Positions 40,102-62,290 of a stretch of DNA of 64,000 nt are shown one piece after another. The position numbers were made by a program, and so were the translations under genes. This stretch comes from Hymenobacter polaris (GTDB lineage: Bacteria; Bacteroidota; Bacteroidia; Cytophagales; Hymenobacteraceae), in assembly GCF_012927305.1 (NCBI RefSeq), contig NZ_JABBGH010000002.1:62001-126000 (forward strand). Direction: 5' to 3'. How positions within the stretch are numbered: position 1 is the first letter of the stretch; each line of letters starts with the position of its first letter. The notes beneath the pieces were generated by a model. That model had not been told where the DNA came from, did no database searches, and was given only the letters and a program-made list of their open reading frames with translations.

Positions 40102-40152
40102 AAGCCGGATTTGGCAGCGTGTTAGCCAACATGCTGCCAAATCCGGCTTTTT
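40102..40152 (+). terminator. Strong intrinsic terminator after the AsmA gene
   Basis: A 17-base perfect stem (40102-40118 with 40133-40149; core AAGCCGGATTTGGCAGC), extended by TGTT/AACA inside, is followed by a T run. It lies 22 bp after the AsmA stop. Confidence 0.9.
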
Positions 40153-40307: not shown

Positions 40308-41324
40308 ATGGCTTCACACGCTACGGCAAACCTGCCGCCGCCCACCCCCTGGCAACGCTTTACGCGCATGCTGGACACCGAACGCGACACCATCCGCTAC
40401 ATTATCTGGTACGCCGTGCTGGCGGGCGTCATCAGCCTGTCGCTGCCCCTAGGCACGCAGGCCGTGTTTAACCTGGTTTCGACGGGCGCCGTGTTTGGCT
40501 CTACCTACCTGCTCATCGCGGTGGTAGTGGGCGGGGTGCTGCTGGGCGGCCTGCTCACAGTGGGGCAGCTTACCCTGGTTGAAGCCATTGAGCAGCGCAT
40601 CTTTGCCAAGGCCGCCATTGAGTATGCCTACCGCCTGCCGCGCATTAAGCCCGAGGCGCTGCACGGCCAAAACCCAGCCGAGCTGGTCAACCGCTTCTTC
40701 GACGTGTTGACGGTGCAGAAGGGCCTGACGAAGTTCTTGATTGACATCTCCTTTGCGGCATTGCAAGTGCTGTTCGGCGTTATCGTGCTGGCCTTTTACC
40801 ACCCTATCTTCATCGCCTTTGGCTTGTTTACCATCGTGGCGCTGGTGCTGGTGTACGCCCTCAACTACCGGCGCGCCCTGCGCACGAGCATCGAGGAGTC
40901 GGCCTACAAGTACGAGCTGGTGGACTCGCTCGAGCACGTGGCCAAGCACCTGGATGACGTGCGCGGCAATGAGGAAGCGCAGAAAAACGCCCTGGCCCGT
41001 ACCGACGAGCTGACTTCCTCGTACCTGCACGCCCGCAACGACCACTTCCGGGTGCTGAAAACCTACTATAGCTACGCCGTGGCGCTGCGCACCTTCCTCA
41101 CGGCCGGCTTGCTCATCGCGGGCACGCTGTTCGTGGTGTCGCGCCAAATGACCCTAGGGCAGTTCGTTGCGGCTGAAGTAATTATCGTGCAGATAAGCGG
41201 CTCGATAGAAAAATTAATGACCGGCGTAAGCACCATTTTTGACATTCTGACGGGCGTGGAAAAGATAGCCGCCGTAACCGACCTGCCCATCGAAGAGCCT
41301 CAAGACGCCCTGCACCATGCTTAA
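40308..41324 (+). CDS. ABC exporter transmembrane domain without an ATPase domain
   Basis: A 338-residue protein that aligns by eye with the transmembrane half of type-1 ABC exporters: six helices between about residues 30 and 300, with the conserved IEQRIFAKAAIEYAYRLPRI coupling region, ELVNRFFDVLTVQKGLTKFLID, and VGGVLLGGLL. The protein ends just where a nucleotide-binding domain should begin. No Walker A, LSGGQ or Walker B exists here. The TAA stop (41322-41324) overlaps the ATG of the HlyD gene (41317), so the truncation is part of an intact, coupled operon. It may use an ATPase in trans or move substrate another way. ATG 40308 was chosen as start. Confidence 0.85.
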   Translation: MASHATANLPPPTPWQRFTRMLDTERDTIRYIIWYAVLAGVISLSLPLGTQAVFNLVSTGAVFGSTYLLIAVVVGGVLLGGLLTVGQLTLVEAIEQRIFAKAAIEYAYRLPRIKPEALHGQNPAELVNRFFDVLTVQKGLTKFLIDISFAALQVLFGVIVLAFYHPIFIAFGLFTIVALVLVYALNYRRALRTSIEESAYKYELVDSLEHVAKHLDDVRGNEEAQKNALARTDELTSSYLHARNDHFRVLKTYYSYAVALRTFLTAGLLIAGTLFVVSRQMTLGQFVAAEVIIVQISGSIEKLMTGVSTIFDILTGVEKIAAVTDLPIEEPQDALHHA

Positions 41325-42696
41325 CCTCTCGAACCAAAACGTGGCCGATGAGGTGTGGGAAAAAACCGCCCGCCAGTCGCGCCCCCAGCTGCTGCGCACC
41401 CAGCCCAGCCGCAAGCTAGGCCGTATCTTACTCGTTGTGGGCCTGGTGTTTCTGGTCATGCTTTTTATGCCCTGGCGCCAAACCATCGATGGGGTTGGCA
41501 CGCTCACGGCCCTCACGCCCCAGGACCGCCCCCAAACGGTGCAAAACCAGATTGCCGGCCGCATCGAACACTGGAACGTGCGCGAAGGCCAGCGCGTGCA
41601 AAAGGGTGATACGCTGCTGATGATTTCGGAAATTAAGGACGAGTACTTCGACCCCAACCTGCCCGAGCGTCTGCGCGAGCAGCTGGCCGCCAAGCGCGGC
41701 AACGTACTAGCCTACCAGGCTAAAATCGGCGCCACCGACCAGCAGATAACCGCCCTGCGCGCCACGCTGGAGGTGCAATTGGAGTCGGCCCGCAACAAAG
41801 TGGAGCAGGCCCAAAACTACCTCAACAGCGACCGCGCCGACCTGGTAGCCATCACTAACTTCTACGAAACGGCCAAGGCGCGGCTGCTGCGCTACGAGGA
41901 GGGCTACAAAAACGGTCTCTTCTCGCTCACCGATATCGAGACGCGCCGCCTTAAGCTGCAGGAAGACCTGGCCAAGGTGACCTCGCAGCGCAACAAGGTG
42001 AACAGCAGTATTCAGGCCCTGGCCAACGCCCGCATTGAGCTGGCCAACCTGCGCGCCAAGTTCGCCCAAGATTTAGCCAAGGCCAGTTCCGACCGCAGCA
42101 CGGCCGTGGCGAGCCGCGAAAGCTACGAAGGTGAGGTAGCTGCCACCCGCAATAAAATAGCTAATGTGTCGGTGCGCCGGGGCCTATACGTAGTGCGCGC
42201 GCCCCAAACCGGCTACATCGTGCGCGCCCTCAAGGCCGGCATCGGCGAAACCATCAAGGAGGGCGAGTCCATTGCCACCCTGCAGCCCGAGGCGCCGCTG
42301 CTGGCCGCCGAGCTGTACGTGCGGGCCATGGACGTGCCGCTCATTCAGCGCGGGCGCACCGTGCGCCTGCAGTTCGATGGCTGGCCGGCCATTCAGTTTT
42401 CGGGCTGGCCGAGCGCGGCGGTGGGCACCTTCGGCGGCGTGGTGACGGTGATTGACGTGGTGAGCAGCACCGGCAGCAAGTACCGCCTGCTGGTGCGCCC
42501 CGCCCAGCCCCAGTCCGGCGACCAGCCCTGGCCCAAGCAGCTGCGCCTGGGCTCGGGCGTGCGCGGCTGGGTCATCCTCGACTCGGTGCCCGTGTGGTAC
42601 GAAATCTGGCGGCAGCTCAATGGCTTCCCGCCCACCCTGAAAGAAGAGCCCGACACCACGCCCGTAAAAGGGGAATCCGGCAAAGCCGACAAATAG
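41317..42696 (+). CDS. HlyD/MFP family membrane-fusion protein
   Basis: An adaptor of 459 residues: cytoplasmic head, one membrane helix (ILLVVGLVFLVMLFMPW), a split lipoyl/barrel (IAGRIEHWNVREGQRVQKGDTLLMISE and RAPQTGYIVRALKAGIGETIKEGESIATL), and a long coiled-coil hairpin between (about residues 110-285). It links the inner-membrane transporter to the outer-membrane channel in tripartite export. It overlaps the upstream transporter stop by 8 bp and is followed 5 bp later by the TolC-like gene. Confidence 0.92.
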   Translation: MLNLSNQNVADEVWEKTARQSRPQLLRTQPSRKLGRILLVVGLVFLVMLFMPWRQTIDGVGTLTALTPQDRPQTVQNQIAGRIEHWNVREGQRVQKGDTLLMISEIKDEYFDPNLPERLREQLAAKRGNVLAYQAKIGATDQQITALRATLEVQLESARNKVEQAQNYLNSDRADLVAITNFYETAKARLLRYEEGYKNGLFSLTDIETRRLKLQEDLAKVTSQRNKVNSSIQALANARIELANLRAKFAQDLAKASSDRSTAVASRESYEGEVAATRNKIANVSVRRGLYVVRAPQTGYIVRALKAGIGETIKEGESIATLQPEAPLLAAELYVRAMDVPLIQRGRTVRLQFDGWPAIQFSGWPSAAVGTFGGVVTVIDVVSSTGSKYRLLVRPAQPQSGDQPWPKQLRLGSGVRGWVILDSVPVWYEIWRQLNGFPPTLKEEPDTTPVKGESGKADK

Positions 42697-42701
42697 CCGC
42701 T

Positions 42702-44291
42702 ATGCCTTCGTTTTTTTTCTTGCTACAATTCCTTCACGGGCTGGCCTTCCGCTGCGCGAGCTTGACAGCCCGCGCCTACCCTAGGGGGGGGGCGGCTGCT
42801 AAAGCAGGCGCCACGGCCTGGCTGCTATTGGTGGCCGGCCCCGCCCTGGCCCAAGACCTCCAGCTGCCGGCCCGCAAATCGGGCCTGGAGCGTGCCCCGC
42901 TGCAAACTATGCAGCTCGAAGAAATCCGGCCCGCCGATACAGCCAAGGTTTTCTCGCTGCAGGACCTGGCCGAGCTGGTGTTTGCCAACCACCCCATCGT
43001 AAAGCAGGCCGCCCTGCTCGGCGCCGAGGCCCAGAGCCAGGTGCTGCAAGCCCGGGGCGGTTTTGACCCCAAGCTGGGCTCCGACTTCCACCGCAAGCTT
43101 TTTGGGGGCACCGAGTACTACAATAACTGGGGCAACGAGTTGAAGGTACCGCTCTGGCCGGGCGGCATCGACCTGAAAGCCAGCTACGACCGCTACGTGG
43201 GCGTGTACACCAACCCCGAAACCCGCACCCCGGTAAATGGCCTGGCCGGCTTGGGCTTGTCGATTCCCATCGGCCAGGGCTTGCTCATTGATGCGCGCCG
43301 CAACACCCTGCGCCAAGCCAAAATACTGGTAACGGCCGCCGAAGCTGACCGCGTGAAGCAGATAAACGAGGTTTGGCTGCAAGCCGTGAAGGACTACTGG
43401 AACTGGTACTACCAGTATCAGCAGCAGCAGCTTATCCGCGAGGGCATTGCGCTGGCCAACCGCCGCTTCCAGGCCACGGCCCGCCGCGCCCAGATTGGCG
43501 ACCAGGCTCCCGTCGATTCGGTGGAGGCCCAGATAACGGTGCAGGACCGCCTGGTGCAGGCCGCGCAGCTGCAAGTAGAGCTGCTCAATGCGCGCCTGGT
43601 GCTCAGCAACCACCTCTGGAACAAGGACGGCCAGCCCGTGGAGCTGCCCACCTACGCTGCCCCCGAAACGCCCGTACGCGATACCGTGACCCGCGCCGAA
43701 TACCAGCGCCTGCGCGAGCTGGCTTCCAGCCAGCACCCCACGCTTATTAAGCTCGATGCCAAGCGCTTGCAGTACAGCATCGAGGAGCGCTACCGCCGCG
43801 AAATGCTCAAGCCCAAGCTCAACCTGAGCGGCAGCTTCATCAGCCAGGGCAACTTCTACCAGCCCGAGGTGCCCAGCTACTATAACTTCGGCTGGGATAA
43901 CTACAAGGTGGGGGTGGACTTTTCCTTTCCGCTATTCCTGCGCGCCGAGCGCGGCAAGCTGCAGTACACCCGCATCCAGATTCAGGAAAACCAGCTGGAG
44001 CGCCAGCAAAGCCAGCGCACCATTGTCACGCAGGTGAACTCGCTCTACAACACGCTGAAAGCCTACGAGCAGCAGTTGCAGCTGCAGGCCCAAACGATTA
44101 CCAACCAGCGCATTCTGCTGCGGGCCGAGCTGCAAAAGTTCGAGCTGGGCGAGAGTACCATCTTCCTGATAAACACCCGCGAAACCAAGCTCATCGAGCT
44201 GCGCATCAAGCAGGAAAGCCTGCGCTCGAGCTACGAGAAATCCAGGGCCGAGCTGTACTACTACGCCGGCACGCGGTCTATCACTAACTAG
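42702..44291 (+). CDS. TolC family outer-membrane channel of the secretion operon
   Basis: A protein of 529 residues with the outer-membrane efflux protein pattern: paired long helical repeats with FSLQDLAELVFANHPIVKQAALLG near the start and TRAEYQRLRELASSQHPTLIKLDAKR in the second half. A signal segment (AWLLLVAGPALAQ) lies after an unusually long leader of about 37 residues. This leader contains a T8 run (42711-42718) and a G9 run (42784-42792). The channel completes a transporter-adaptor-channel set. The stop codon abuts the long palindrome at 44291. Confidence 0.88.
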   Translation: MPSFFFLLQFLHGLAFRCASLTARAYPRGGAAAKAGATAWLLLVAGPALAQDLQLPARKSGLERAPLQTMQLEEIRPADTAKVFSLQDLAELVFANHPIVKQAALLGAEAQSQVLQARGGFDPKLGSDFHRKLFGGTEYYNNWGNELKVPLWPGGIDLKASYDRYVGVYTNPETRTPVNGLAGLGLSIPIGQGLLIDARRNTLRQAKILVTAAEADRVKQINEVWLQAVKDYWNWYYQYQQQQLIREGIALANRRFQATARRAQIGDQAPVDSVEAQITVQDRLVQAAQLQVELLNARLVLSNHLWNKDGQPVELPTYAAPETPVRDTVTRAEYQRLRELASSQHPTLIKLDAKRLQYSIEERYRREMLKPKLNLSGSFISQGNFYQPEVPSYYNFGWDNYKVGVDFSFPLFLRAERGKLQYTRIQIQENQLERQQSQRTIVTQVNSLYNTLKAYEQQLQLQAQTITNQRILLRAELQKFELGESTIFLINTRETKLIELRIKQESLRSSYEKSRAELYYYAGTRSITN

Positions 44292-44484
44292 ACCGCAGAT
44301 TTAACGGATTTAACTGATGTCGCAGATACGCTGCTTCGCAGTTGGCTACGCGAATAGTGAGGGCCCTAGAATAGTTTCTTGGCCGAAGAGGTAAGCGGGC
44401 TAAGCAAAGGCATTTTAACGTTCACGTAGCCAGCTGCGAAGCAGCGTATCTGCGACATCAGTTAAATCCGTTAAATCTGCGGTC
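44291..44484. repeat. Long palindrome family B between two convergent stop codons
   Basis: Arms of 61 bases (44291-44351 and 44424-44484) are complementary apart from one or two bases. They read GACCGCAGATTTAACGG, AACTGATGTCGCAGATACG and CTGCTTCGCAG in order. The left arm starts in the last base of the upstream TAG stop; the right arm ends 1 bp before the opposite gene's stop. A unique 72-base spacer separates them. A decayed half copy lies at 6332-6382. Confidence 0.92.
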
Positions 44485-44485
44485 T

Positions 44486-45988
44486 TTAATCTGCAGTCCA
44501 GCCACCCCCTAGGGCCTGGTAGAGCAAGATGCCCTGCTGCAGCTGGTCGCGGCGGGCGTTGGCCAGGTTCAGCTCGGCGTCGAGCGAGCTGCGCTGGGCC
44601 GTAACTACTTCCAGGTAAGAGGCATAGCCGGCCAGGTACAGCTCATTGGAAGTCTCGATGGCGCTGCGGAGCTGGGCGGCCTCGCGGGCGCGCAGGTCCA
44701 CGATGGCGCGGTAGTTTTCGAGGCCGCGCAGCCCGATTACCACGTCGCGGTAGCCGCTTTGCAGGGCCTGCTGGTAGCGGTAGTAGGTTTCGTTGCGGCC
44801 GGCGGCGGCACGGCGCAAATCGGCCCGGAAGGCCGCCCGGTTGATGATAGGCCCGGTGAGACCCCCTAGGACCCCAAATACCACCGAGTTAGGATTAAAG
44901 AGCAAGTCGGCCCGAAACGCGTTGAGGCCCAGGTAGGGCGTGAGGGTGAGCGAGGGCAGGAAGGCGGCCTGGGCGGCGGCAATGTCGGCCTGGCCGGCCG
45001 CCAGCTCGGCTTCGGCCTGGCGCACGTCGGGCCGATGGCGCAGGGCCGAGGCCGGAATGCCCACCCCCAGCTTGCCCACCAGCCCGGCTTCGGGTAGCGT
45101 GGTGCCGCGCTTAATGGGCGCGGGGTAGCGGCCTAGCAGCTGGTTGAGGCGGGTTTCGGTTTCGACGATGCCCTGGCGGGCTTCGTAGGCCAGGCTTTCG
45201 GTACGCAGCGTTTGGGCTGCAAACTGCTGCACGGCCAGCTCGGTGGCGCGGCCGGCCTGCTTTTGGATGCGTATCAGGCGCAGGGCTTCCTGCTGCAAGC
45301 GAGCATTGCGCTGCACCACGGCCAGCTGGTTGTCCAGGGTCAGCAGCTCGTAGTAGTTGCGGGCTATTTCAGCAATAAGGTTGGTTTGCACCAGCCGGCG
45401 GCCTTCCTCCGAGGCCAGCACGCGCAAGTAGGCGGCGCGGCGCCGGCTGCGCAGCTTGCCCCAAATGTCAATTTCCCAGCTGCTGCGGAAGCCGCCAAAA
45501 AAGTCGGGCGTGATGGGCCCCGGAATCACTTGGTTGCCCGTGATATTCTGCGAGAGGTTGGTGTCGTAGTTGCCCACCCCATTGAGGGTGTAGCGCCCGT
45601 AGCGGTCGAGCCCCGCCGTGCCCCCTAGGGATACGGTGGGAAACAACGCCCCGCGCCGCTCGATGTAGTCAGCCCTGGCCAGCTCGACGCGCTGCACGGC
45701 CACGCGCAAGTCCAGGTTTTGCCGCAGCGCCGTGTCTATCAGCGCCGTCAGGGCCGAGTCTTGGTAGAATTTGCGCCAGGGCTGCCCCCCAGCCCCTAGC
45801 GAATCGACGGGCGCGGCGGCGTTGGGGAAGGCGGCCGGCAGCCGGGCGCCCGCGCTGGGTGCGTCGGGCGCGGCCACGCGGCAGCCGGCGGCGAGTAGCA
45901 ATAGAAGACTGAGTGTTATGGCCAGGCGATTTACCCCATCCCCCGGCCCCCTCCCCTTTGGGAGAGGGGGAGCCGCGGCGGCGCACAT
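44486..45988 (-). CDS. RND efflux outer-membrane lipoprotein (NodT/OprM type)
   Basis: A TolC-superfamily lipoprotein of about 500 residues. The lipobox is LLAAGC. The characteristic first-repeat block PWRKFYQDSALTALIDTALRQNLDLRVA and the second-repeat IPASALRHRPDVRQAEAELAAGQADIAAAQAAFLPSLTL identify the NodT branch. It is the outer-membrane exit of the RND pump encoded upstream. The open frame begins at 46027; I take ATG 45988. The leader before the hydrophobic segment (PLPKGRGPGDGVN) is encoded inside an inverted repeat, so the native start is uncertain. Confidence 0.9.
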   Translation of the reverse strand: MCAAAAPPLPKGRGPGDGVNRLAITLSLLLLLAAGCRVAAPDAPSAGARLPAAFPNAAAPVDSLGAGGQPWRKFYQDSALTALIDTALRQNLDLRVAVQRVELARADYIERRGALFPTVSLGGTAGLDRYGRYTLNGVGNYDTNLSQNITGNQVIPGPITPDFFGGFRSSWEIDIWGKLRSRRRAAYLRVLASEEGRRLVQTNLIAEIARNYYELLTLDNQLAVVQRNARLQQEALRLIRIQKQAGRATELAVQQFAAQTLRTESLAYEARQGIVETETRLNQLLGRYPAPIKRGTTLPEAGLVGKLGVGIPASALRHRPDVRQAEAELAAGQADIAAAQAAFLPSLTLTPYLGLNAFRADLLFNPNSVVFGVLGGLTGPIINRAAFRADLRRAAAGRNETYYRYQQALQSGYRDVVIGLRGLENYRAIVDLRAREAAQLRSAIETSNELYLAGYASYLEVVTAQRSSLDAELNLANARRDQLQQGILLYQALGGGWTAD

Positions 45989-46144
45989 AGTTGACTGTAG
46001 TTTATATAGGGGCTTTTGTAAACTCATTTTAAAGCAGAATCAGCTAATACACTGCTGATAATAGCGCCGCCGTGGTTTCCTTTCCCTCGCAGGATGTCGC
46101 GCATCAAGCGAGGTGGGGCCGGGGGGTGGGGTAAATCGCCTGGC
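45921..46144. repeat. Inverted repeat family D around the start of the outer-membrane factor gene
   Basis: A 30-base arm at 45921-45950 (GCCAGGCGATTTACCCC, then CCCCGGCCCC) recurs inverted at 46115-46144 with one mismatch. One arm lies within the 5' coding region of the outer-membrane factor; the other ends 11 bp before the RND pump's stop. Confidence 0.88.
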
Positions 46145-46155
46145 AGCCAAAGGGC

Positions 46156-49100
46156 CTAGGCTGCCTCCAACTCCTTTTCCGTTACCGGCTCGGGCTGGGG
46201 TTCGGGCTGCTTTTCCTTCGGCTCCGCTTTCTTACCGCGCATCACTAGCAGGTAGAGGCCCGGAATGAGCAGCAGGCCGAAGAAGGTGCCCACGAACATG
46301 CCGCCCGCCGCCGCCGTGCCAATGCTGCGGTTGCCCAAGGCGCCCGCCCCATCGGCAAACACCAGCGGCATGAGGCCGGCCAGGAAAGCGAACGATGTCA
46401 TGAGAATGGGCCGCAGGCGGGCACCCGCGCCTTCCACCACGGCGTCGAGCGGCGAGGCGCCCTCGCGGCGGCGCTGCTCGGCAAACTCGATGATGAGGAT
46501 GGCGTTTTTGCCCAGCAAGCCCACCAGCATCACCAGCGCCACCTGGGCATAGATATTGTTTTCGAGGCCCGCCAGCTTCAGGGCCAAGAAGGCGCCGAAG
46601 ATGCCGGTGGGCAAGCCCAGCAGCACCGGCAGCGGCAGCACCAGGCTCTCGTACTGGGCCGCTAGCAGCAGGTACACAAACAGAATGACGATGCCGAACA
46701 CGTAGATGGCCTGGTTACCGCTCAGGACCTGCTCGCGCGTCATGCCGCTCCACTCGAAGTCGTAGCCCCTAGGGAGCACCTTTTTGGCGGCCTTTTCGAT
46801 GGCCGTGAGCGCCTCGCCCGAGCTGCGGCCGGGGGCGGCGTCGCCGTTCACCATGGCGGCGGTGTACATGTTGTAGCGCGTCAGCTGGTCGGGGCCGTAC
46901 ACGCGCTCGAGGCGCACGAAGGTGGAGAAGGGTACCATCTCGCCGCGGCTGTTCTTGACGTGCAGGGCCAGCAGGTCGTCGGGGCGGCGGCGGTACTCGG
47001 GCTCGGCCTGTACCATCACCTTGTACATCTGCCCGAAGCGGATGAAATTGCTGGCGTAGTAGCTGCCCATCAGGGTTTGCAGGGTGCTCATGGCTTTTTC
47101 CACCGTCACGCCCTTTTTGGCGGCCATGTCCTGGTCGATGTGGATGAGGTACTGCGGGTAGTTGGGGTCGAAGCCCGTAAACGCCTCGCCCACGGCCGGG
47201 TCCTGGCGCAGCACCGTCAGAAAGTCCTTGGTCACGGCCGCCGTCTTGGCCAGGTCGCCCTGGCCGGTCTTGTCCAGCACCCGCAGCTCGAAGCCGCTGG
47301 CATTGCCGAAGCCCGGCACCGTGGGCGGCGGCAAAAACTGGATGGTAGCGTCGCTGATGCCTTTGGTTTTCTTTTCCAACTCCTCAATCAGCTCGGGTAC
47401 CGACTGCCCGCGCTCGTCCCAAGGCTTTAGGTTAATCATGGCCATGCCGTAGCTGGCGCCGGCTACTTCGCTCACCAAGCTGTAGCCGGCCAGCGTCGAA
47501 ACCGACTCCACGGGCTTGAGCTGGCGCACGATGCGCTCGACCTGCTCCAGCACCTGCTCGTTGCGCTCCACGGTGGCGCCGGCAGGCGTGGTCACGTTCA
47601 CGTAAATCATGCCCTGGTCCTCGGTCGGGATGAAGCCCGAGGGCAGAACGCGGCTCACGCCCCAGGTGCCCGCCACAAACAGCGCCAGCAGCCCTAGGGT
47701 CAGTAGGCGGCGCGGGGCCAGGCGCGTCAGCAGGCTTTGGTAGCGGTGCGTTAGGGCCTCGAAGCGGCTATTGAAGCCGGCCGCCAGGCGCCCGAAGAAA
47801 CCGGGCTGATGCGGGGCGTGGCCGCTCGGCGCGGTGGTATCGGCGGCCGCGTCGTGGGCATCGTGGGCGTGCTCGCTGGGCGCTTCGGCATGCTCCGGGG
47901 CTTTTAGCAGCAGGGCGCACAGGGCAGGCGTGAGCGTGAGGGCATTGACGCCGGAGATAATAATGGCAATGGCCAGCGTAAGCGAAAACTGGCGGTAGAA
48001 CACGCCCACCGGCCCATCCATAAACGACACCGGGATGAACACTGCCGCCATCACCAGCGTGATGGCTACCAGCGAGCCCCCAATCTCGTGCATGGCCTGC
48101 GAGGTAGCGGCCCTAGGGTCGCCGGGGTTATGGTGCAGCTTGGCGTGCACGGCCTCCACCACCACAATGGCGTCGTCGACCACAATGCCGATGGCCAGTA
48201 CCAGCGCAAACAAGGTCAGCAGGTTGATGCTGAACCCGAACAGCTGCATAAAGAACAGTGCCCCCACCAGCGCCACCGGCACCGCCAGGGCGGGTATCAG
48301 CGTCGAGCGGAAGTCCTGTAAGAAAATGAATACCACGATGAATACCAGCACGAACGCCTCCAGCAGCGTGCGCAGCACCTCGTGGATGCTGGCGTCCAGA
48401 AACCGCGATACGTCGTAGGCGAAGCTGTACCGCATGCCGGGCGGAAAGCTGGTTTCCTTCAGCTCGGCCATGCGCGCCTTCACCGCCGCAATCACTTCGC
48501 GGGCGTTGGAGCCGGGGCGCTGCTTGAGCATAATGGCCGCCGAGGGCCGCCCGTTTTCCTTCGACGACATGCCGTAGGTGAGCGAGCCAAACTCCACGTC
48601 GGCCACGTCCTTGAGGCGCAGCTGCGAGCCGTCGGCGTTCGAGCGCAGCACCAGGTTGCGGTACTGCTCGGGCTCATAAAGCTTGCCGGTGTAGCGCAGC
48701 ACGTACTGCAGAGGCTGCACGGCGTTGGCGCGGCCCGAGCTTTCGCCGGTTTTGCCGGGCGCGGCCTCCACGTTCTGGGCCCGAATGGCGTCAATCACCT
48801 CGTCGGTGCCCAGGTCGTAGGCCGTCAGGCGGTCGGGCTTCAGCCACACCCGCATCGAGTATTCCCTAGCCCCCATTATCTCGGCAAAGCCCACCCCGTT
48901 GATGCGCTTCAACTCCTGCAATAGGTTGATGTCGGCGAAGTTGTAAATGAACTTCTCGCCCACCGTGCGGTCGTCGCTGGTCAGGTTCAGGTACAACAGC
49001 ATCGAGTTTACCTCCTTCTCGGTGGTCACGCCGGCCTTAATTACCTCCTCCGGCAACTCGTCCAGGATGGTGGTCACGCGGTTCTGCACACTCACCGAGG

Positions 49101-49407
49101 CCAGGTCGGGGTCGGTGCCCACCTCAAAGAAGATGGTGATGAGCGTCAGGCCGTTATTGCTGCTAACCGACTGCATGTAGGTCATGCCCGGCACGCCGTT
49201 GATGGCGCGCTCCAGGGGCAGGGCCACGGCCTTGGCGCACACCTCGGCGTTGGCGCCCGTGTACTTGGCCGTCACCGTCACCGAGGGCGGCACGATGTCG
49301 GGAAACTGCGTGATGGGCAGCCGCGTGAGGGCCAGGCCCCCCAGCAGCAGCAGGAAGGCCGAAATGACCATTGACAGGATGGGCCGGCGGATAAAGAGGT
49401 CGAGCAT
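46156..49407 (-). CDS. RND multidrug efflux permease, AcrB/MexB (HAE1) type
   Basis: A proton-driven pump of 1083 residues. The start MLDLFIRRPILSMVISAFLLLLGG, the porter region (LPITQFPDIVPPSVTV) and the transmembrane proton-relay Asp pair in GIVVDDAIVVVEAVH are typical of hydrophobe/amphiphile exporters. The central cytoplasmic loop (near residues 498-532) is His/Asp/Glu rich (EHAEAPSEHAHDAHDAAAD). The length is about 35 residues above AcrB because of this loop and a Glu/Pro/Lys tail. The TAG stop lies in a CCTAGG site. It forms one operon with the adaptor and the outer-membrane factor. Confidence 0.95.
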   Translation of the reverse strand: MLDLFIRRPILSMVISAFLLLLGGLALTRLPITQFPDIVPPSVTVTAKYTGANAEVCAKAVALPLERAINGVPGMTYMQSVSSNNGLTLITIFFEVGTDPDLASVSVQNRVTTILDELPEEVIKAGVTTEKEVNSMLLYLNLTSDDRTVGEKFIYNFADINLLQELKRINGVGFAEIMGAREYSMRVWLKPDRLTAYDLGTDEVIDAIRAQNVEAAPGKTGESSGRANAVQPLQYVLRYTGKLYEPEQYRNLVLRSNADGSQLRLKDVADVEFGSLTYGMSSKENGRPSAAIMLKQRPGSNAREVIAAVKARMAELKETSFPPGMRYSFAYDVSRFLDASIHEVLRTLLEAFVLVFIVVFIFLQDFRSTLIPALAVPVALVGALFFMQLFGFSINLLTLFALVLAIGIVVDDAIVVVEAVHAKLHHNPGDPRAATSQAMHEIGGSLVAITLVMAAVFIPVSFMDGPVGVFYRQFSLTLAIAIIISGVNALTLTPALCALLLKAPEHAEAPSEHAHDAHDAAADTTAPSGHAPHQPGFFGRLAAGFNSRFEALTHRYQSLLTRLAPRRLLTLGLLALFVAGTWGVSRVLPSGFIPTEDQGMIYVNVTTPAGATVERNEQVLEQVERIVRQLKPVESVSTLAGYSLVSEVAGASYGMAMINLKPWDERGQSVPELIEELEKKTKGISDATIQFLPPPTVPGFGNASGFELRVLDKTGQGDLAKTAAVTKDFLTVLRQDPAVGEAFTGFDPNYPQYLIHIDQDMAAKKGVTVEKAMSTLQTLMGSYYASNFIRFGQMYKVMVQAEPEYRRRPDDLLALHVKNSRGEMVPFSTFVRLERVYGPDQLTRYNMYTAAMVNGDAAPGRSSGEALTAIEKAAKKVLPRGYDFEWSGMTREQVLSGNQAIYVFGIVILFVYLLLAAQYESLVLPLPVLLGLPTGIFGAFLALKLAGLENNIYAQVALVMLVGLLGKNAILIIEFAEQRRREGASPLDAVVEGAGARLRPILMTSFAFLAGLMPLVFADGAGALGNRSIGTAAAGGMFVGTFFGLLLIPGLYLLVMRGKKAEPKEKQPEPQPEPVTEKELEAA

Positions 49408-49427
49408 AAGGGATAATATAGTGAATT

Positions 49428-49541
49428 AGAATGTCATACTTATCTGGCGTCCGCTTGCCGAAGCATCTCTCCCACGCCGTTGGGAATACCCTAGGGTGTC
49501 GTTCGGTAGAGATGCTTCGGCTGCGCTCAGCATGACATTCT
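49428..49541. repeat. Family A hairpin element, hybrid copy inside the RND operon
   Basis: The outer ends (AGAATGTCAT / ATGACATTCT) and the core (CCGAAGCATCTCT / AGAGATGCTTCGG) pair. The left arm carries the long-subtype insert (ATCTGGCGTCCGC) while the right arm carries the short-subtype CTGAGCGCAG form, so the middle does not pair. The loop contains CCCTAGGG. It lies between the adaptor and pump genes of one operon. Confidence 0.88.
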
Positions 49542-49571
49542 ACTCTGAGCCATTGGCCTAACAGTGAGAGC

Positions 49572-50732
49572 CTACTCCCCGTCGGCCAGCAGCGAATCCA
49601 TCTGCACGGTTTTGGGTTGAATACGCTGGCCGTCGCGCAGCTCCTGGGTGCCTTCGTACACCACGCGCTCGCCTGGCTTAAGGCCATCCTTCACTACGTA
49701 AAATGGCCCGATGCGCGTTTGCGGCTTGAAGCTGCGCGAGTGCACCGTGCCCGACTGGTCAACCACGTACACGTAGTTTTTATCCTGCAGTTCGAAGGCG
49801 GCGCGCTGCGGCACCATCAGGGCCTTGGGCAGGGTGGTGGTGAGGCGCACCTTGCCGGTGCTGCCGTGCTTGAGCAGGCGGTCGGGGTTAGCGAAGCGCG
49901 CCCGAATAGCCAGCGAGCCGGTGCTGGGGTCAATCTGGCTTTCGCTGGTTTCGATGCGGCCGGCCAGCGGGTAGCGCGAACCGTCGGCCATCGTCAAGTC
50001 TACTGAGTCGGGGTGCAGCTCGGGGTGTAGCTCGCGGGCGCGGCGCAGGGCCAGGTATTCGCCTTCGCCAATGTCGAAGTAGGCGTATACCTGGTGCAGG
50101 TCCGATACGGTGGTGAGCAGCGTGCCCTTGTCCACCACGCTGCCCATCTTGAGCGGAATGCGGTCGGTGATGCCGTCGAAGGGCGCGCGTATCAGCGTGT
50201 AGCTCAGCTGAGTGCGGGCGTCGGCCACGCTGGCGCGGGCATCGGCCACGTGGGCGTCGGCGTCGCGCACCTTGCTTTCGGCCAGCGTCAGCTCGCTTTT
50301 GGCAATCACGTTTTTGCTCACCAGCAGCTGCACCCGGCCGCGCTCCACGCGGGCCTCGGTGGCCTTGGCTTCGGCGCTGGCCACGGCTGCCTGGGCCTGC
50401 AGCAAGTCGTGCCGAAACAGCTCAGTATTGAGCTGAAACATGGGCTGCCCCTTCTTCACGGGCTTGCCCTCGTCCACCAGAATCTTCTCCAGAAAACCCG
50501 GTACCTGGGCCCGCACCTCCACGTTGCGAATGGCTTGGATATCAGCCACGTAATCGTGAAAAAGCTCCTGCTCCGAAGTCGTCAGCGTGAGTACCGGCAG
50601 GGTGGGCGGGGCCTCGGCTTTCGAATTATCTTTTTCGGCCTTGGCCGTGCAGGCGGCTAAGCCCAGCCCTAGGGCACTGGCCAGCAGCAAGGATAACGCA
50701 GGGGAAGCTAAACGAGGACGCGGGCGGAGCAT
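49572..50732 (-). CDS. RND efflux periplasmic adaptor (MFP), lipoprotein
   Basis: An adaptor of 386 residues. It has a lipobox (GLAAC) after a signal segment (LSLLLASALGLGLAAC). The first lipoyl half (VRAQVPGFLEKILVDEGKPVKKGQPMFQLN) is followed by a coiled-coil hairpin and the second half (YTLIRAPFDGITDRIPLKMGSVVDKGTLLTTV). A beta-barrel and a membrane-proximal domain ending in PQRAAFELQDKNYVYVVDQSGTV follow. It is the first gene of the efflux operon. I chose ATG 50732 because it gives a normal lipoprotein signal; the frame is open to 50825. Confidence 0.92.
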   Translation of the reverse strand: MLRPRPRLASPALSLLLASALGLGLAACTAKAEKDNSKAEAPPTLPVLTLTTSEQELFHDYVADIQAIRNVEVRAQVPGFLEKILVDEGKPVKKGQPMFQLNTELFRHDLLQAQAAVASAEAKATEARVERGRVQLLVSKNVIAKSELTLAESKVRDADAHVADARASVADARTQLSYTLIRAPFDGITDRIPLKMGSVVDKGTLLTTVSDLHQVYAYFDIGEGEYLALRRARELHPELHPDSVDLTMADGSRYPLAGRIETSESQIDPSTGSLAIRARFANPDRLLKHGSTGKVRLTTTLPKALMVPQRAAFELQDKNYVYVVDQSGTVHSRSFKPQTRIGPFYVVKDGLKPGERVVYEGTQELRDGQRIQPKTVQMDSLLADGE

Positions 50733-51011
50733 ACCGCCTGTACGACGAATGCTCGGCCCGCGTTGATGAACAGATTCTTGAGAAACAACCAGTTGAGAAG
50801 AAGCGGCAGCGGTTGGAGAAGGCAAGGAGTCGGGCGTTGGTGAAACAGGCCGCCGGTGGCTGGCCCAGGGGGCCCCGCCCAGCGCGGTAGCTGCTAAACG
50901 AAGTTACGGCCCGAAAAATTTATGAAAAGTTGATTAATTATTTTCTCCCGCTGTCCGCCGCGGTGGTTTTGCCCACTGCCGCAAGCAGTAGCCACCACGA
51001 CGGCGACCGCT

Positions 51012-60991: not shown

Positions 60992-62290
60992 TTACAGTAC
61001 GTCTAGCAGCGACTCCAGGCCCATGCCGCGGCTGCCTTTTAGCAGCACCAGCTGCCCGGCTAGGGGGTGCGCCGCCAGCCAGGCGGCGGCCTCGGCTTTG
61101 GTGGCGAAATGATGGGCGGCGGGGTGCGTTTGCGCGGCGGCCTGCAGCAACGGGCCCACCAGCAGGGCGTTGGGTAGCTGTAGCTCCGCCAGCAGCTCGC
61201 CTAGGGCCTGGTGCTCGGCCAAAGCGCTGTCGCCCAGCTCAAACATGTCGCCCAGGATAACCCAGCGGCTTTGGTCGGCGGCCGTGGGCCGGCTGGCAAA
61301 GCTGCGCAGGGCGGCGGCCATGCTGCTGGGGTTGGCGTTGTAGGCGTCGAGGATGAGGTCGTTGCCGCGGACGGTGCGCAGCAGCTGCGAGCGGTTGTTT
61401 TGCGGGTTGTAAGCCCCTAGGGCGGCGGCTATCTGGGTGGTAGGCACCCCAAAGTGCGCGCCCGCGGCGGCGGCGGCGGCCATGTTCGGGAAGTTGTATT
61501 CGCCCGTGAGTTGGGCCGCCACGCCGGTGCCATCCCAGAGGCGCAGGCGCAGGGCCGGGTCGGCGCCGAGCAGGGTGGTGGCGTAGCTGTCAGAGGGGGC
61601 AGGGTAGCTGATGCGCCAGGCCACGGCAGCGGCCAGGGCGGGCAACTTGGCATCGAGGGTGTTGACGAAGGCGGTACCCTGGTGCGCGGCCAGGTAGTCG
61701 AACAGCTCGCCCTTGCCCAAGGCAATGCCTTCCTCGCCGCCAAAGCCTTCGAGGTGCGCCTTGCCAATGTTGGTGATGAGGCCGTGGGTGGGGGCGGCCC
61801 ACTGGCAGTAGGCGGCAATCTCGCCCCGGTGGTTGGCGCCCATCTCCACCACGGCCAGCTCGTGCTGCTCGGGGCGCAGGCGCAGCAAGGTGAGCGGCAC
61901 GCCGATGTGGTTGTTGAGGTTGCCGCTGGTGGCCAGCACGTTGTACTTCTGGGCCAGCACCGCCGTGAGCAGCTCCTTGGTGGTGGTTTTGCCGTTCGAG
62001 CCCGTCACGGCCAGCACCGGGCCCCGGAAGTGGCGGCGGTGCTCCTGGGCCAGGGCTTGCAGGGCGGCCAGCGGGTCGGCGGCGTAGGTGTAGCGGGCGG
62101 CGTCGGTGGCGGCCAGGGCGGCATCGTCTACCACGGCGTGGCGGGCGCCGGCGGCCAGCGCGCCCGGCGCAAAGGCAGCCCCCCGAAAGCTGGGCCCGTT
62201 GAGGGCAAAAAACAAGGTGCCTAGCTGCGGCTGGCGCGAATCGGTGCTGACCTGGCCCTGGGCGGCGAGGTAGTGGTCGTAGAGAGTCAT
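60992..62290 (-). CDS. murF: UDP-N-acetylmuramoyl-tripeptide--D-alanyl-D-alanine ligase
   Basis: An ATP-dependent peptidoglycan-precursor ligase of 432 residues. The P-loop is AVTGSNGKTTTKELL (near residue 105). Other Mur-ligase marks are LNNHIGVPLTLL, VVEMGANHRGEIA, TNIGKAHLEGFGG and LDAYNANPSSMAAAL. It adds D-Ala-D-Ala to the UDP-MurNAc-tripeptide in the cytosol. I chose ATG 62290 (MTLYDHYLAAQGQVSTDSR), the usual start for Bacteroidota MurF. Confidence 0.95.
   Translation of the reverse strand: MTLYDHYLAAQGQVSTDSRQPQLGTLFFALNGPSFRGAAFAPGALAAGARHAVVDDAALAATDAARYTYAADPLAALQALAQEHRRHFRGPVLAVTGSNGKTTTKELLTAVLAQKYNVLATSGNLNNHIGVPLTLLRLRPEQHELAVVEMGANHRGEIAAYCQWAAPTHGLITNIGKAHLEGFGGEEGIALGKGELFDYLAAHQGTAFVNTLDAKLPALAAAVAWRISYPAPSDSYATTLLGADPALRLRLWDGTGVAAQLTGEYNFPNMAAAAAAGAHFGVPTTQIAAALGAYNPQNNRSQLLRTVRGNDLILDAYNANPSSMAAALRSFASRPTAADQSRWVILGDMFELGDSALAEHQALGELLAELQLPNALLVGPLLQAAAQTHPAAHHFATKAEAAAWLAAHPLAGQLVLLKGSRGMGLESLLDVL

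Follow-up and report, generated by a model that had tools for sequence, protein, structure and literature searches.

Can an exporter of the ATP-binding cassette (ABC) type still serve a tripartite secretion-like machine after losing the ATPase domain, and what would then drive it? It is the ATPase that defines an ABC transporter; among natural type IV members SbmA is the known case that functions in its absence, and the route from primary to secondary transport is an open question. A locus of Hymenobacter polaris raises it anew. Within the 64,000-nucleotide stretch of contig NZ_JABBGH010000002.1 analyzed here (positions 62,001 to 126,000; "the window"), window positions 40308-44291 hold an operon in the order TMD-HlyD-TolC, in which the transmembrane domain (TMD) of an ABC exporter lacks any nucleotide-binding domain (NBD) and is followed by a HlyD-type adaptor and a TolC-type channel. 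The operon belongs to a conserved Bacteroidota clade of type-I-secretion-like TMD-HlyD-TolC operons whose inner-membrane protein is an NBD-free ABC type IV exporter domain. By analogy with other NBD-free membrane domains, we consider it about an even chance (0.5) that this tripartite system is an exporter that runs without an ATPase of its own, on a proton (or other ion) gradient. Hundreds of soil and water bacteria carry a machine resembling ATP-driven secretion whose pump has lost its ATP engine.

Conservation of the NBD-free exporter operon

The first-pass annotation of this DNA described the first gene as a six-helix exporter domain only, and Pfam agrees: ABC_membrane (PF00664; 39.6 bits, residues 32-299) was the sole match on the 338-residue protein, with no match to ABC_tran. 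The annotation also took the stop codon overlapping the HlyD ATG for a real end and not a frameshift. The HlyD ATG (41317) lies inside ATGCTTAA, where 8 bp are common to the end of the TMD gene and the beginning of the HlyD gene, and relatives in other genomes end at the same point (see below). Adaptor and channel genes follow directly, as had been noticed; the adaptor is TIGR01843-like with a HlyD_3 match, and the TolC gene, whose ATG stands 5 bp past the HlyD stop, matches PF02321 OEP (136 bits, 1.9e-39). The window's genome has one copy of the TMD gene.

GTDB contigs were scanned with an alignment of NBD-less proteins, which confirmed at least 521 relatives; the best 80 were examined, with flanks checked over 8 kb on each side for most. 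All 80 are NBD-less, their end points differing by no more than a few residues, which disposes of the possibility, raised at the outset, that close homologues all carry a C-terminal ATPase. The 8-bp overlap is the same in most of these loci, and HlyD lies downstream in all 80, followed by TolC wherever the contig reaches. The 80 loci span eight genera (Hymenobacter, Pedobacter, Mucilaginibacter, Dyadobacter, Chitinophaga, Fibrisoma, Arsenicibacter and Foetidibacter) in four families, and the nearest orthologs among them are all from Hymenobacter. No NBD was conserved in the flanks of the 80 loci; NBD hits, present in a minority of the flanks, were other ABC genes at inconsistent positions.

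Within the genus Hymenobacter, the NBD-less form was found in 28 of 61 genomes (71-85% identity; frames of 344-375 residues, except two of 387 and 487 that reflect upstream read-through) and a full-length relative in 26 of 61 (44-49% identity; frames of at least 570 residues). Both forms occurred together in a single genome (Fisher P = 3e-9, kinship ignored). The NBD-less TMD gene is under strong purifying selection, with a ratio of nonsynonymous to synonymous substitution rates (dN/dS) of 0.01-0.09 in eight pairs; two further pairs had saturated dS.

Origin of the NBD-free clade

In a tree of 86 TMDs, all 32 NBD-less rows formed one clade with support of 100/99, in keeping with the expectation of a conserved NBD-less lineage that retains its HlyD and TolC partners (80 of the 80 best relatives). 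Within a wider HlyD-TolC-linked family, this clade adjoins L193, a full-length protein with a dead NBD. Alignment of the family NBDs with five exporter NBDs of the same genome sorted the family into three grades. In the nearer full-length group Walker A survives in nearly every member, but the LSGGQ signature, the H-loop histidine and the canonical Walker B D-E pair are missing from 35 of 35; the nearest full-length relatives are approximately 32-49% identical to the NBD-less proteins. A more distant clade of 16 (approximately 29-40% TMD identity) has an altered signature and Q-loop, mostly retains the other motifs (Walker A, Walker B D-E pair, H-loop) and, to judge from these, still looks ATPase-competent. 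The third grade, the NBD-less clade, has none of this domain. The full-length relatives L166-L181 keep Walker A, the D-E pair and an unusual H-loop (often SHDAE), their signatures are non-LSGGQ and the Q-loop glutamine is mostly missing; they appear to be an atypical ABC ATPase class of their own.

Tree and motifs together show that the NBD-less clade arose once, beside relatives with motif-dead NBDs. Because the nearest full-length relatives have already lost their catalytic motifs, loss of the ATPase motifs would have come before loss of the domain, that is, the ATPase seems to have decayed first and the domain to have been deleted once thereafter. Grouping of the dead-NBD and NBD-less proteins as one clade was neither proven nor rejected by a rooting test (approximately unbiased [AU] test, P = 0.25), and the catalytic motifs may therefore have gone once or repeatedly. 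The remnant domain is not drifting freely: in four pairs of Hymenobacter dead-NBD genes, dN/dS was 0.16-0.52 for the NBD part versus 0.07-0.42 for the TMD part, so the NBD part is evolving faster than the TMD part yet is constrained.

Relatives are also found on plasmids, in Riemerella (dead NBD) and in Novosphingobium, a sphingomonad in which not even Walker A is left in the "NBD". In the latter (L211, plasmid pNL2, annotated only as "ABC transporter transmembrane domain-containing protein") and in L207, the C-terminal domain is eroded and Walker A is gone, which looks like further NBD decay outside the NBD-less clade. A candidate for a second independent NBD loss (G568, a 353-residue frame) is cut by the end of its contig. 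The full-length relatives L193, L192 and L189 have an N-terminal cytosolic extension of approximately 140-155 residues that Pfam does not name and that is absent from the NBD-less clade.

Energy source and rival explanations

The AlphaFold2 model of the TMD, predicted as a single chain (mean local confidence [pLDDT] 78; predicted template modeling score [pTM] 0.68), is that of a complete type IV exporter domain, with six long helices and short helices at the coupling positions (residues 115-118 and 215-218). It aligns with exporters along its whole length; VIA-align against HlyB of the HlyB/D complex (8dck_A, residues 127-458) gave Z = 27.2 and rmsd = 3.3 over 327 residues. Judging by the fold, the TMD would form a dimer. 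Periplasm-facing segments (residues 49-66 and YHP 164-166) are strongly conserved. Three membrane-embedded acids stand out: E92 in transmembrane helix 2 (TM2) and E290 in TM6 are each present in 82 of 82 NBD-less rows, where three outgroup rows have L92 and Q290, and E95 (TM2) is glutamate in 78 of 82 NBD-less rows and glutamine in 33 of 35 dead-NBD members, glutamine also being the residue in most NBD-bearing members.

An ion-driven exporter is favored because NBD-free TMDs with such activity are on record and because the family acids are absent from the three outgroup rows. MsbA-MD, which has no NBD, transports ethidium with a pH gradient as driving force (PMC4979069). For LmrA-MD, symport of protons and ethidium was reported, and LmrA itself needs a TM6 glutamate to couple to protons (PMC6155054). 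SbmA, which descends naturally from a YddA-like TMD, is driven by protons and works through a glutamate ladder (PMC13316013). On this precedent, a type-I-like TMD-HlyD-TolC exporter would have stopped using ATP at an NBD of its own, a proton (or other ion) gradient would drive what remained, and E92, E95 and E290 would be candidate ion-coupling sites. The change from YddA to SbmA/BacA would then have a second natural case, here in a tripartite exporter. The larger reading, of a natural tripartite secretion machine that has the fold of an ABC exporter and is secondary-active, with living intermediates in which the passage from primary to secondary transport can still be read, is put forward tentatively, at somewhat less than even odds.

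Several observations pull the other way. Both coupling helices, which SbmA has lost, are still there in the AlphaFold model. Members that look ATPase-competent conserve E92 and E290 to about the same degree, so these two acids are not specific to NBD loss. In intracellular loop 1 (ICL1), E125, N128-R129-F130-F131-D132 and Q137-K138 are invariant among NBD-less members, as would be expected if some cytosolic partner still docks there. Finally, the entropy ratio at coupling helix 2, which rises from 1.0 in near-intact members through 1.33 in dead-NBD members to 1.80 in NBD-less ones, is not extreme, 7% of clade windows being equally variable.

One rival idea is that the TMD is still ATP-driven and takes its ATPase subunit from another locus (a shared NBD, for example a LolD/FtsE-like or importer ATPase). 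Shared subunits do occur, MsiK being an ATPase that serves several sugar importers, and physical candidates exist here, with 49 NBD matches in the window's genome; the persistence of both coupling helices in the model, and of the rest of ICL1 as the most conserved cytosolic part, also fits. Against it, a profile of the family NBD run over twelve genomes scored 270-330 bits at the full-length gene in the four genomes that have one, and in the eight NBD-less genomes did not exceed 176 bits, a score seen only within other complete exporters, with standalone NBDs there reaching about 105 bits; the orphan NBD of matching distribution that had been proposed as a check did not appear in them. Ten standalone NBD proteins of H. 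polaris, picked as having no clear permease neighbor in a crude hydrophobicity scan or as otherwise doubtful, were LptB-, LolD-, FtsE-like or importer-like where they could be named, four having no model hit at the threshold used. Y122 and R213, beside the coupling helices, are kept even next to a motif-dead NBD (each in 32 of 35 dead-NBD members, and in 13 of 16 and 14 of 16 near-intact members, respectively) and are replaced in the NBD-less clade; together with the more variable coupling helix 2, their loss speaks against NBD docking of the former kind. Since the rest of ICL1 is invariant, it is likely that something else in the cytosol makes contact there or that the loop bundle has a structural role. 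With the family NBD lacking a counterpart in the eight NBD-less genomes, Y122 and R213 lost, and the nearest relatives already without catalytic motifs, an ATPase acting in trans is disfavored and we regard it as unlikely.

The TMD may also be no active pump at all and instead gate the HlyD-TolC conduit or scaffold its assembly, the substrate leaving down its own gradient or the complex having a role in envelope stability or signaling. The missing engine, the lack of a conserved cargo gene, and conserved periplasm-facing segments suited to docking speak for such a role, whereas the constraint on the TM helices, ICL1 and the family-specific acids exceeds what a bare anchor needs; on balance we hold it possible but doubtful, at about one chance in four by our judgment. 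Much harder to sustain is a heterodimer in which the TMD-only protein pairs with a complete ABC half-transporter from another locus. Heterodimeric exporters with a single degenerate site are known, such as TmrAB (PMC8277102), but a second ABC gene was in the operon in none of the 80 loci, nor in the operons of the full-length relatives examined, and the partner's NBD would have no second NBD with which to dimerize. A lone frameshift, truncation or assembly error is refuted by the common end at 80 of 80 loci in many assemblies and by the low dN/dS. The ion-driven tripartite exporter is thus retained as the favored explanation: of the two options left by the first-pass annotation, an ATPase in trans or a family that had become a non-ATP-driven transporter or scaffold, the former has lost ground, and within the latter the transporter is preferred and the scaffold possible.

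Cargo, operon boundaries and comparison with known systems

Across the clade (80 loci) no gene next to the operon is conserved, and the lack of an adjacent cargo gene that had been remarked of this locus extends to the family. An open reading frame of approximately 112 codons lies directly upstream, on the same strand, in most loci of Sphingobacteriaceae and Chitinophagaceae; its product has an N-terminal membrane anchor and a C-terminal (V/L)xTPPP-like motif, and could be an accessory factor or a substrate. It is encoded at L121:7546-7890 and at about 30 more NBD-less loci (Pedobacter, Mucilaginibacter, Chitinophaga and relatives), was absent from the Hymenobacter and Dyadobacter loci examined, and had no match in the H. 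polaris genome.

Features of the operon and its borders (window positions)
Feature	Position	Strand	Remarks
Intrinsic-terminator-like hairpin behind the preceding AsmA-like gene	40102..40149	+	20-bp stem and T tract; consensus match only
NBD-less ABC exporter TMD	40308..41324	+	338 aa; six helices and both cytosolic coupling loops
HlyD-type periplasmic adaptor (membrane fusion protein)	41317..42696	+	459 aa; HlyD_3, Biotin_lipoyl_2, TIGR01843
TolC-family outer membrane channel	42702..44291	+	529 aa from ATG 42702
65-bp inverted repeat behind the operon	44290..44485	.	copy of a genome-wide palindromic repeat family

The three genes are probably on one transcript, since a terminator-like hairpin precedes the operon and an inverted repeat follows it. 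The hairpin is a putative terminator that would set the operon apart from the upstream AsmA-like gene. The repeat, whose arms are 97% complementary (RNA folding z = -20.7), probably closes the operon and is no part of the transporter: its 25-bp core occurs 60 times in the genome, 27 times forward and 33 times reverse, versus 0 for the reversed control, and many of the sites form facing pairs spaced roughly 130-270 bp apart. A convergent operon of the resistance-nodulation-division (RND) efflux type directly adjoins the tripartite operon (44486-50825, minus strand; adaptor, 1083-residue pump and outer membrane factor).

No description of an NBD-less HlyD/TolC system was found in the open-access literature searched. 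With type I secretion (HlyB-HlyD-TolC) the H. polaris system shares the three-gene layout, the exporter fold and the HlyD and TolC family partners; a type IV exporter TMD, an adaptor and a channel are all present, whereas an ATPase is neither on the protein nor conserved in the flanks, and the genome holds no family NBD. It also differs in having no C39-like N-terminal domain and no recognizable cargo gene, and sequence identity between HlyB and the TMD is 14% in the structural alignment. With SbmA/BacA (SLiPT) it shares an NBD-free ABC type IV TMD, an NBD-bearing ancestor and conserved membrane-domain acids (PMC13316013). It differs from them in its exporter-type operon with HlyD and TolC, in the coupling helices of the modeled TMD, in having six helices and no TM0, and in the motif-dead NBD relatives that document decay; no match to the SbmA_BacA family was found, Pfam at E up to 0.1 returning only PF00664. 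MsbA-MD and LmrA-MD are likewise TMDs alone, with proton-coupled transport measured (PMC4979069, PMC6155054), but they are laboratory truncations of ATPase-competent transporters, outside any tripartite system. Heterodimeric exporters with a degenerate site differ in that the operons examined here contain no second half-transporter gene.

The closest comparison is with the full-length Bacteroidota relatives, from Riemerella, Flavobacteriaceae-type and other Hymenobacter genomes, which have the same HlyD-TolC operon and TMDs of 40-49% identity (32% in Riemerella WP_004920602), and which differ in keeping an NBD with Walker A mostly intact and the other catalytic motifs lost. These are annotated as "ABC transporter ATP-binding protein", and many Bacteroidota entries of that name in HlyD-TolC operons are probably not ATP-hydrolyzing, which affects the annotation of type I secretion in this phylum. 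Competent-looking, motif-dead and absent NBDs thus coexist in one family with one operon layout, making a change of energy source testable by comparison of living relatives.

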